A stretch of DNA of 33,243 nt, taken from NCBI GenBank assembly GCA_022706825.1, contig JAKJBU010000012.1, positions 1 to 33,243 of the forward strand, given 5' to 3'. The notes beneath the pieces are model-generated. The model had not been told where the DNA came from. It saw only the letters and a list, made by a program, of their open reading frames with translations, and did not search any database. This DNA comes from Bacillota bacterium (lineage in GTDB: Bacteria > Bacillota > Clostridia > Lutisporales > Lutisporaceae). A program made the translations under genes and the position numbers. Shown here piece by piece: positions 6,324 through 33,243 of this stretch. Every line of letters begins with the position of its first letter. The first letter of the stretch is position 1.

Positions 6324-6395
6324 CGGTTCAGGCACGGACTATCATACGTGTGAAATAAATATTCACAAATGAATTATTACAGGGAGGTTGGTATT

Positions 6396-6932
6396 ATGGA
6401 GGTTATGCTGCTGCTCGACGCCCTTGAAGATATACTGGATAAGGCGCCGAATCTGCCCTTATCAAGTAAGTCCATGATTAATAAGGAAGAATTGCAGGAA
6501 ATAATAAAGGAAATAAGAATAAAGCTGCCCGATGAGATAAAACAGGCTCAATGGATTAAGGAAGAAAGGCAGAAAATACTTATAGAAGCAAAAAAAGAAG
6601 CTGAAAATCTGAGAAAAGAATGCGAAGAGAAACTGAACAAGGTTAAGGAAGAACGTCAGAGGATTCTTGCCGAAGCTGAAAAAGAAGCTGAAATACTTAA
6701 GAAGGAAGCTGACAAAAAGGTTCAGGAGCTTATTGATGAAAGTGATATAATAAAAAAGGCAAATGAACAGGCAAAAGAACTTATTATTGCTGCTCAGATA
6801 GATGCCAAAAAGATAAGGCTGGGTTCCAAAGCATACGCGGACGAGCTGCTGGCGGAACTTGAAAAACACACGGAAAAAATAATAGAAACAATAAGGAACA
6901 ACAGGGATGAGCTTAAGAATTACAAGAGCTGA
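6396..6932 (+). CDS. Coiled-coil protein of unknown function between coaD and ylbJ
   Basis: The 178-residue product begins 'MEVMLLLDALEDILDKA', followed by a long charged helix (about residues 45-120) with strong coiled-coil character. An internal duplication is visible: 'EERQKILIEAKKEAENLRKE' near residue 54 and 'EERQRILAEAEKEAEILKKE' near residue 81, 27 residues apart. The C-terminal third also looks helical. Similar proteins in this position in clostridia are sometimes named ATPase or ATP synthase b-subunit-like because of their heptad composition; I see no membrane anchor and do not accept that function. The ATG at 6396 has GGGAGG at 6382-6387. An upstream in-frame ATG at 6369 lacks a site. 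A palindromic repeat starts six bases after the stop. Confidence 0.75.
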   Translation: MEVMLLLDALEDILDKAPNLPLSSKSMINKEELQEIIKEIRIKLPDEIKQAQWIKEERQKILIEAKKEAENLRKECEEKLNKVKEERQRILAEAEKEAEILKKEADKKVQELIDESDIIKKANEQAKELIIAAQIDAKKIRLGSKAYADELLAELEKHTEKIIETIRNNRDELKNYKS

Positions 6933-6937
6933 TAAGT

Positions 6938-7010
6938 GGTACAAGGGGGACGTTTCTCTTGTACCCTTTTAATTTATTCATTTGGGACAGGAGAAACGTC
7001 CCCATGTACC
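6938..7010. repeat. GGGGACGTTTC palindromic repeat, copy 1
   Basis: The left arm, from GGTACA at 6938 to GACGTTTCTC ending at 6958, pairs with the right arm GAGAAACGTCCCC (6991-7003) plus TGTACC (7005-7010), with a one-base length difference. The inner part (TGTACCC at 6960-6966 and GGGACAG at 6984-6990) can also pair. The element fills the space between two convergent genes. It contains the end and stop codon of ylbJ on the minus strand. Its core is shared with the repeat at 11811-11926. It may serve as a two-way terminator. Confidence 0.8.
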
Positions 7011-8171
7011 TTTAATATGCACCGCGGACATAAAAAGCAATATTATCAGCATATTTGCGGCAGAGGTAACCAATACCCGCAAAAAGCTGTATTCCAGGAT
7101 CGTATTTTGCACAAATGATTCTGCCGGAAGGTTAAAAACCTGAAGATCAGAAAACCAGGCAACCAGTACATAGGAGTAGAATGCAGCCGCAATTCCCTGA
7201 AAAAGCTTGGTAATGAAATAAATACCGAGCTTAAGATCCGTTCCGGATATTATACTCATCACCTGGGCATTTACTGAAAGCCCTCCAAATCCTATCATGA
7301 AACTCGTTATGGCAGCCTTGTATATTAAGGGCACCCGGAGAGAGGCACATGACTTCGCCCCGTTGGTTACTTCCAGTAAGCCGATAAGCAGACTGGATAT
7401 AATATCGGGAGTTATGCTCTTAAGGGGGATTGCCCTTGAAAGGCTGAGGGAGAACCATTCGAGAAAGCCTGATATTCTCAGCATGCCGGTTATCACAGAA
7501 AAGAAGATAATAAAACCGCCTATCATAAGTATCAGGTCGATTCCGTTCTTTACCGCATCTCTCATCAGCATTCCGAAAGTACGTCCGTCTCTCCTTCTGT
7601 ACTCCATCATTTCAGCAATAGGATTTGATATATATTTTTCCCTGATGCGGGGATTTTCTTTCCCATAAAAACGCATTGCAAACCCGATTGTGATGGCTGA
7701 CAGGTAGTGGGCAATTGCAATAAAGGAGCCTAAGGCCGGATTGTTCAATATTCCGGTGGCAACCGCACCTATTATGAACAAAGGCCCCGAGGTGCTGCAC
7801 AAGCTCAGCAGCCTCTGCCCTTCAGCAAGAGTACACAGGTTTTTGCTGTACAGTTCTGCGGTAATTTTTGCGCCTACAGGATACCCGGAGGATATACTCA
7901 TAAAAAAATCAAAGGAGCCTTCCCCGGGCACATTGAATACCGGACCCATAAGGGGACGGAAGGCGGAACCGAACAGTCTGACAATACCCAGGCCAATTAA
8001 GATTTCAACACAGATAAAGAAGGGCAGAAGTGCGGGGCAGACCACATTGAACCATAGCTTCAAACCATCAAGTGAAGCTGCAAAAGCCTCTCCCGGATAT
8101 CTGATTATGAATGTCACAAGGATACAGAAGATAAAGGAATAAGCAAAGGTGGAAATAGTGCCTTTTTTCAT
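6978..8171 (-). CDS. ylbJ: Sporulation integral membrane protein YlbJ
   Basis: The 397-residue product is a multi-pass membrane protein matching YlbJ, which B. subtilis needs for a late sporulation step. N-terminal helix 'TFAYSFIFCILVTFII', then 'WFNVVCPALLPFFI', 'SSGYPVGAKI' and 'GFGGLSVNAQV' are family-typical, and nucleoside-recognition (Gate) domain features occur twice. ATG at 8171 follows AGAGG. The last residues (GTWGRFSCPK) and the stop codon are encoded by the palindromic repeat at 6938-7010, so the native C-terminus has probably been replaced by repeat-derived sequence. Reading toward the coiled-coil gene, it is convergent. tmcAL lies upstream on the same strand, 79 bases away. Confidence 0.93.
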   Translation of the reverse strand: MKKGTISTFAYSFIFCILVTFIIRYPGEAFAASLDGLKLWFNVVCPALLPFFICVEILIGLGIVRLFGSAFRPLMGPVFNVPGEGSFDFFMSISSGYPVGAKITAELYSKNLCTLAEGQRLLSLCSTSGPLFIIGAVATGILNNPALGSFIAIAHYLSAITIGFAMRFYGKENPRIREKYISNPIAEMMEYRRRDGRTFGMLMRDAVKNGIDLILMIGGFIIFFSVITGMLRISGFLEWFSLSLSRAIPLKSITPDIISSLLIGLLEVTNGAKSCASLRVPLIYKAAITSFMIGFGGLSVNAQVMSIISGTDLKLGIYFITKLFQGIAAAFYSYVLVAWFSDLQVFNLPAESFVQNTILEYSFLRVLVTSAANMLIILLFMSAVHIKGTWGRFSCPK

Positions 8172-11810: not shown

Positions 11811-11926
11811 AGACACGGGGAGGGAGACACGGGGAGGGAGACAGGGGGACGTTTCCCCTGTCCCACTTCCAGTGGGACACGCGAAACGTCCCCGTGTCTC
11901 CCTCCCCGTGTCTCCCCGTCTTTTTT
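11811..11926. repeat. GGGGACGTTTC palindromic repeat, copy 2 (long hairpin)
   Basis: Arms of about 44 bases, 11824-11868 and 11871-11914, pair with only a few mismatches around a TCC loop. The arms carry the core GGGGACGTTTC also found at 6938-7010. The outer arms contain a tandem GACACGGGGAGG unit repeated, mirrored on the other side. A T-run follows at 11921-11926. GC content is far above the surroundings. It sits between the rpmF terminator and the fapR promoter. Confidence 0.85.
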
Positions 11927-31385: not shown

Positions 31386-31531
31386 AAAGGTAGGGTAATA
31401 CGAATATGAAAAAAGAAAATGTAAAACGGAATAGAGAAATAGATAATTATGAAAACGGCACGATAACTAAAAAGGAGGGGCGCCAAGGAGACAGTAAAGA
31501 CGAGTCGAGGTCTCTTGTAAAAGGAGGATTT

Positions 31532-31987
31532 ATGAACATGGAAAACATCGGAGGCATGAAAATAATAGGTCTTAAAGACTTTAGAAACAATGTATCTGAC
31601 ATAATCTTCAAAGTTATAAACAACTTTCAGGTTGTTTTAACCGGTAATGTGAAAAAAGGAGGTCCGACAGTATCAATTATTTCAACAGACCTGTTAGAAG
31701 ACATATTAGAAAAATACGAGTTTAATCCTGAAATAACATATGATGAAGAAACGAAGCAGCACGAAATCAGTTTAAAAGAAATAAATGCATTCGGAAGTGG
31801 GGATACAAAGGAAGAAGCTATAAAAATTGTATTGGACAACGTGATGGCATTAACGGAAGACTTTTTTGAAGATATAGAGCTTTACATGAGAATGGATCCC
31901 CAAAAAAAGCAATATCCTTACTTTATGAGAATTAGCCACTGCAAAACTGAATCAGAGTTATTAAAGGTGTTGAACTTAGTCCAGTAA
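31532..31987 (+). CDS. Putative antitoxin, Phd/YefM-like N-terminus and HicB-like C-terminus
   Basis: With start at ATG 31532 the product has 151 residues. 'MKIIGLKDFRNNVSDIIFKV' resembles the N-terminal DNA-binding part of Phd/YefM antitoxins. From about residue 60 the sequence turns HicB-like: strand pairs in 'EITYDEETKQHEISLKEINA', then 'FGSGDTKEEAIKIVLDNVMA', as in the HicB RNase H-like fold. An acidic helix and a C-terminal tail follow. AAAAGGAGG at 31519-31527 sits upstream. The reading frame is open back to an ATG at 31406 (193 residues), but the predicted transcription start (about 31392) leaves no ribosome site for it. The small gene at 32002 follows 14 bases after. The hybrid reading is inferred from sequence pattern only. 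Confidence 0.55.
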   Translation: MNMENIGGMKIIGLKDFRNNVSDIIFKVINNFQVVLTGNVKKGGPTVSIISTDLLEDILEKYEFNPEITYDEETKQHEISLKEINAFGSGDTKEEAIKIVLDNVMALTEDFFEDIELYMRMDPQKKQYPYFMRISHCKTESELLKVLNLVQ

Positions 31988-32001
31988 ACGAGGTGGCAGT
32001 A

Positions 32002-32235
32002 TTGACAACGAGTTTTCGCGACCTGGAAAGGGTGTGTAAAGCCTTGGGCTTAAAGGGTATCCCGAAAACAAATGGTATGCTATGGAAAGGTTTTGTAAAA
32101 GGCAAGTTTGTTAGAATAATGATACATAAGCATAGCGGTGGTAAAGATGTACCAACAGGAACTTTCAACTGCTATTTAAAAGAATTAGGTTTTAGTACCG
32201 CGCAAGAATATAATGAATTCTTAAATAGTATATAG
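32002..32235 (+). CDS. Putative toxin, HicA-like small basic protein
   Basis: The 77-residue, lysine-rich product has a start 'MTTSFRDLERVCKALGL'. Its second half, 'IHKHSGGKDVPTGTFNCYLK' then 'ELGF', resembles the HicA core in which a His/Lys block is followed by GT and a leucine-rich helix. The standard HicA 'GSHH' with its catalytic His is not present: the equivalent stretch reads 'KTNGMLWKGFVKGKFVRIMI'. The TTG at 32002 is five bases after GAGGTGG (31990-31996); a GTG at 31993 overlaps that site. The distance to the upstream gene (14 bases) indicates co-transcription and likely coupling. A toxin role is an inference from size, charge and position. Confidence 0.5.
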   Translation: MTTSFRDLERVCKALGLKGIPKTNGMLWKGFVKGKFVRIMIHKHSGGKDVPTGTFNCYLKELGFSTAQEYNEFLNSI

Positions 32236-32753: not shown

Positions 32754-33243
32754 CTATCTATTAGTCGGCGATATATAAAGCTGATTGGTGTTCAGCAGTG
32801 AGTACACCAATCGAACCAACTTCCTTGCAGTTAGTGCGAGGGCACGTTTGTGCTGATGTTTCGGTACTTCTTTAAACTTGGATTGATAGTAGCGTTTGAA
32901 TTCGGTATCGTGCATGCATACCTTATTCGCGGCTTCCAAGAAATAATACTTTAAGTATTTGTTGCCCGAAAGTATCAGCCTTGTATTGGAGGCTTCATAG
33001 CCTCCAGATTGGTATCTTGTCCAGGTGATGCCGGCATATTTAGCAAGAGCAGCATGGTTTTTAAAACGATGAATGTCCGCAATTTCAGCTAATATACCAG
33101 CACTATACACCGGACCGATACCAGGGATGCTGCCCAGAATGTCAGGGAACAGCTGCATATAGGATTCAATGGCTTTATCCAGATCCTTCTGCTGTTGCTG
33201 TAATGAGCGGATACCAATCAGGCGTACAGCCAGTAGCTGGTTC
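32754..33243 (-). CDS. IS110-family transposase, C-terminal part (runs off the window)
   Basis: The visible 163 residues end at TAG (32754-32756). They contain 'GSIPGIGPVYSAGILAEI', the helix-hairpin-helix of the Transposase_20 domain, then 'ALAKYAGITWTRYQSG' and 'LILSGNKYLKYYFLEAANK', where IS110/IS1111 enzymes carry the catalytic serine. The frame continues past the right window edge ('NQLLAVRLIGIRSLQ' before the first visible Met at 33158), so the N-terminal RuvC-like domain is outside. No stop or shift in the visible part, so it may be active. IS110 elements insert with RNA-guided recombination and lack standard inverted repeats. Confidence 0.9.
   Translation of the reverse strand, partial: NQLLAVRLIGIRSLQQQQKDLDKAIESYMQLFPDILGSIPGIGPVYSAGILAEIADIHRFKNHAALAKYAGITWTRYQSGGYEASNTRLILSGNKYLKYYFLEAANKVCMHDTEFKRYYQSKFKEVPKHQHKRALALTARKLVRLVYSLLNTNQLYISPTNR

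Follow-up and report, generated by a model that had tools for sequence, protein, structure and literature searches.

The window, i.e., the whole stretch of 33,243 nucleotides that was analyzed, carries on its minus strand the gene ylbJ (6978–8171), encoding a protein of 397 amino acids that was identified by TIGR02871 (score 325.6 bits, cut-off 304.65; amino acids 12–375 matched). ylbJ is a sporulation-membrane gene. Convergent to it, a plus-strand gene (6369–6932) encodes a coiled-coil protein with no confident family match and stops 5 nt from a palindromic element at 6938–7010. This element was confirmed to be a REPIN, an inverted pair of a palindromic repeat with the core GGGGACGTTTC. Its first REP half (half A, 6938–6965, plus strand) is the hairpin GGTACAAGGGGGACGTTTCTCTTGTACC, with the core at 6946–6956 and CTTTTAATTT after it, and its second (half B, 6984–7010) reads GGTACATGGGGACGTTTCTCCTGTCCC on the minus strand, with the core at 6993–7003; an AT-rich spacer of 18 nt (6966–6983) lies between them. 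The arms 6946–6965 and 6984–7003 showed 90% complementarity, and RNA folding of the element gave z scores of -8.9 (plus) and -8.0 (minus), so strong folding is possible on both strands. Two further cores, at 11845 (plus) and 11883 (minus), belong to a second copy of the family, an intergenic composite REPIN (11811–11923) with extended GACACGGGGAGG arms; the four cores detected in the whole window compare with 0.21 expected. A reading of 11811–11923 as a microRNA was discarded as an artefact of the long hairpin, all of the Rfam matches being under the gathering score. Elsewhere in the window, a PHD-like antitoxin gene (PF12910) followed by an 80-codon ORF without Pfam match, its possible partner, was observed at 31406–32235 (plus), and a piece of an IS110/IS116-type transposase (PF02371) at 32754–33158 (minus), near the contig end.

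An earlier note on this DNA had proposed that the palindrome reaches into ylbJ and supplies its protein end, and the reading frame bears this out: on the minus strand, from 7010 down to 6978, GGT ACA TGG GGA CGT TTC TCC TGT CCC AAA TGA is translated as GTWGRFSCPK*. The attribution of all ten last residues and the stop to the repeat was correct in part, as nine residues (GTWGRFSCP) are encoded by the REP half at 6984–7010, whereas the final Lys codon (6981–6983) and the TGA (6978–6980) are located in the spacer. The new tail (amino acids 388–397) is outside the TIGR02871 model, whose match stops at amino acid 375.

The alignment of YlbJ C-termini from relatives had been set beforehand as the test that could refute this proposal, and the proposal withstood it. 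The tail GRFSCPK was not found in any compared relative lacking the repeat in ylbJ; repeat-free genes end otherwise (KNKK...), with IIKNKKRLLHQSLSR in genome G003, LIKYKRGRKHQSLFN in G005 and IMKNKKHILHI* in G001, where a differently built REPIN cluster is placed just past the native stop. By contrast, YlbJ of G004 ends in IKSTRGRFSCLK (STRGRFSCLK), and the same element occupies the same site as in the window's genome, G000; the aligned tails, KGTWGRFSCPK and KSTRGRFSCLK, differ at 4 of 11 positions. Both elements have GTACA stems, an AAATGA...AAAAGGG spacer and the same boundaries. Since the GTACA stems were found in G000 and G004 at this site only, they point to one shared insertion. In the ylbJ tree, G000 is sister to G001 with modest to weak support (85/76); because G001, of the same genus, does not have the coding insertion, this placement calls for a loss or for a more complicated history of the element at ylbJ.

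When the core was counted through the genome, as the earlier note had suggested, a high-copy palindromic family was revealed. In G000 (1.8 Mb, 71% complete), 192 exact GGGGACGTTTC cores were counted and 2 matches to the reversed control; for tight inverted pairs, mostly 49 nt long, the numbers were 72 and 0. The usual form of the family is GGGGACGTTTCTCCTGTCCCGCTTTCAGCGGGACAGGAGAAACGTCCCC (49 nt), and the spacer of 6938–7010 differs from the usual GCTTTCAGC/GCTGAAAGC. Within the same genus, 122 cores were counted in G001, 64 in G002 and 30 in G004; the core was rare in G003 (1) and absent from the genome of G005. In a sample of 391 genomes of the class, four had the 20-base form, and all four belong to this genus; scattered copies occur elsewhere. 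The copies have near-identical arms and fixed spacing, and some of them lie between co-directional genes. A census covered 49 element clusters, a subset of the copies in the genome. Nearly all of these clusters were intergenic, and of the 38 gene ends within 60 nt of them 34 were 3' ends (p = 6e-7), a bias also published for REPs; ORF calls were mechanical, and ORFs "spanning" elements were dropped as coding cases, since most of them are short, on the opposite strand or 5' extensions. Searching the literature for the core string returned unrelated papers only.

Besides ylbJ, one gene in this census ends in the repeat, encoding a NagZ-like GH3 protein (PF00933) that finishes with EELNGDTGTFLLSR (NGDTGTFLLSR) in a canonical copy, its stop being the TGA of GCTGAAAGC. 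Its relatives end natively, with EELIK* in G004 and EELNSKIKAAR* in G003. Five of the six frames of the canonical element are open, so protein ends within the repeat arise easily. Two other features of the family were observed. The near-identical genomes G000 and G002 differ in a composite REPIN at another locus, where one of the two has a further 19-nt half-unit (L126 versus L090), a sign of recent turnover. Additionally, some REPINs (L034, downstream of ylbJ, and L138, L150 and L157) lie inside a larger inverted repeat whose arms resemble AGAAGAATAATGCGAC, as if they were nested in a second MITE.

The search for a RAYT or IS200-like transposase, also suggested in the note, gave a divided answer, with cognate RAYTs in three other genomes and none in the window's own genus. 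In whole-genome searches, RAYT genes with GGGGACGTTTC hairpin flanks were detected in three unrelated genomes: the hairpins stand on both sides of the gene in G040 and in G394 (GGACAAGGGGACGTTTCTCTTGTCC), and on one side in G395, where a contig end cuts the locus. Their RAYTs form one clade (100/100), apart from those flanked by GGGGACAGGTA (G003 and G004) and by GGGGACGGGG, in a tree whose bootstrap had not fully settled. The HUH (NHAH/NHVH) and YIHQNP (Y..NP) motifs of the flanking RAYTs are intact, and Y1_Tnp (PF01797) was above cut-off. In several genomes, the hairpins flanking RAYTs begin with GGGGAC (L158, L162, L163, L064, L065, L161, L165, L166 and L169–L171), and the bases after it (GTTTC, AGGTA, GGTCC or GGGG) follow the RAYT clade, L158, L162 and L163 being the members of the GTTTC clade.

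No cognate (GTTTC-clade) RAYT was found in G000, G001, G002 or G004, nor at the loci holding the 20-mer; the cognate RAYT of the genus either lies in the missing parts of the assemblies or has been outlived by its REPINs. Two candidates in G000 were rejected. An IS200/IS605 tnpA at C122 overlaps a tnpB and is without core flanks, the nearest REPIN lying some 1.4 kb upstream and separated from it by an ORF, and a RAYT fragment at C13 has its own flank, GGTGCCAGGCAC, of another repeat type. This truncated gene is a member of a second RAYT group ("YHVIARGNNKEYIF"; L071, L072, L073 and L032) with GTGCCAGGCAC-like repeats as flanks. The description of the ylbJ element as mobile-repeat DNA stands insofar as its family has cognate RAYTs in other genomes; mobility itself, and a RAYT-driven insertion at this site, are inferred from membership of the family, with no empty site, target duplication or movement seen at the locus.

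It is therefore very likely, in our judgement, that the element is one copy of a REPIN amplified in the genus, inserted over the 3' end of ylbJ, and that the REP-encoded tail has replaced the native one. The REPIN, with its two inverted GGGGACGTTTC hairpins, would belong to the elements that RAYT/TIRYT-type Y1 (HUH) transposases mobilise, and an ancestor of G000 and G004 would have gained it in the short gap between the convergent genes, over the end of ylbJ. Given that five of the six frames of the repeat are open, ylbJ would then read through one REP half and stop in the spacer, exchanging its native tail for a REP-encoded one of some ten residues and about equal length. The new tail, predicted to be cytoplasmic or terminal, is most likely neutral for YlbJ, and the plus-strand half may fold as a terminator-like hairpin acting on the convergent gene.

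This last feature also bears on the claim of a two-way terminator, which was not upheld, and on the reading of the palindrome as an ordinary intrinsic terminator that overlaps ylbJ by chance and is not a mobile repeat. The plus-strand hairpin (6938–6965) followed by CTTTTAATTT is indeed terminator-like (1 site versus 0.4 in shuffles), and a site between convergent genes suits such a function. However, no terminator signature and no T-tract were found on the minus strand of the element, the same core flanks RAYT genes elsewhere, and this reading is already contradicted by the 192 copies of the core, whose arms are nearly identical, whose spacing is constant and some of which lie between co-directional genes; it is highly improbable. 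A separate gain of the element by G000 and G004, with the gap between the convergent genes as a hot spot, would agree with the presence in G001 of its own REPIN cluster just after the native ylbJ stop, and the high identity of the two elements would suit a young age; since the rare GTACA stems, the spacer and the boundaries are common to both genomes, we consider it improbable.

The elements of G000 and G004 are identical at 62 of 65 aligned bases (8 nt of indels left out), above the identity of ylbJ (77.7%; Fisher p = 2.5e-4) and of the neighbour gene (83.1%; p = 0.009), a comparison chosen after the fact at one locus, in two genomes and over 65 columns, and regarded as a lead only. Purifying selection on the REP-encoded tail or the hairpin, i.e., domestication of the element, could account for it, and other copies are unlikely to have produced the identity by gene conversion, given that the GTACA stems occur nowhere else in these genomes. 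Nevertheless, the small, post hoc sample with its indels, the four differing tail positions and the chance of independent later insertions of similar elements make domestication unlikely. It is a slightly more doubtful proposition still that the ylbJ REPIN has outlasted neutral change as a domesticated unit, in which a single run of 73 nt would provide two convergent genes with a coding end, a stop and a terminator hairpin at once.

The family resembles the REPIN/RAYT (TnpA-REP) systems (Bertels and Rainey, 2011, PMC3116915, where REPINs are defined; Nunvar, 2010, PMC2817692) in several respects: its copies are numerous, form inverted doublets of REPs around a short spacer, fold into hairpins and are mostly intergenic and 3' of genes, and the same REP flanks matched RAYT genes, here in other genomes and not in its own genus as assembled. 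Unlike the canonical GTAG REPs, with 5' GT[AG]G (GTAG/GTGG) at the hairpin foot, its copies have GGGGAC and a clade-specific suffix. TIRYT TIRs (Di Nocera, 2013, PMC3733652; subclass 2.1, PMC6006769) are similar in their Y1 transposases of about 250 amino acids, whose HUH, Y---NP and Y1_Tnp features were found in the flanking genes of other genomes, and in their flanking inverted repeats starting with GGGG[AT][CG], in dimers and clusters; they differ in their moderate copy numbers in the literature, versus about 190 cores here. The TIRYT motif GGGGWSAS fits GGGGACAG, the sister repeat of related RAYTs, and the core GGGGACGT departs from it at positions 7 and 8. In PMC6006769, searches around subclass 2.1 genes gave no REP-like sequences, and the identity with TIRYTs was left open. 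The clade-matched hairpins bear on this question, the subclass 2.1 membership of these RAYTs being putative, and the match of suffix to clade (GTTTC, AGGTA and GGGG) offers a candidate recognition code for TIRYT/subclass 2.1 enzymes.

Protein ends encoded by palindromic repeats are already known in other bacteria. REPs that lie within ORFs or at their ends, and REP-encoded protein ends and stop codons, have been published (PMC3733652; also PMC5896051), and in Coxiella the enhC gene has QMITE2 at its 3' end, which encodes a 33-amino acid EnhC C-terminus (PMC5896051), compared with ten residues that replace a native tail here. In these cases, as in the Rickettsia palindromic elements, the repeat gives C-terminal residues and sometimes the stop, in other element families and hosts. 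What is new here is a member of the family with a clean example: a RAYT-linked palindrome family is documented in a clostridial genus that has received little study, and ylbJ and the NagZ-like gene are two clean cases of mobile-repeat DNA turned into the end of a host protein.
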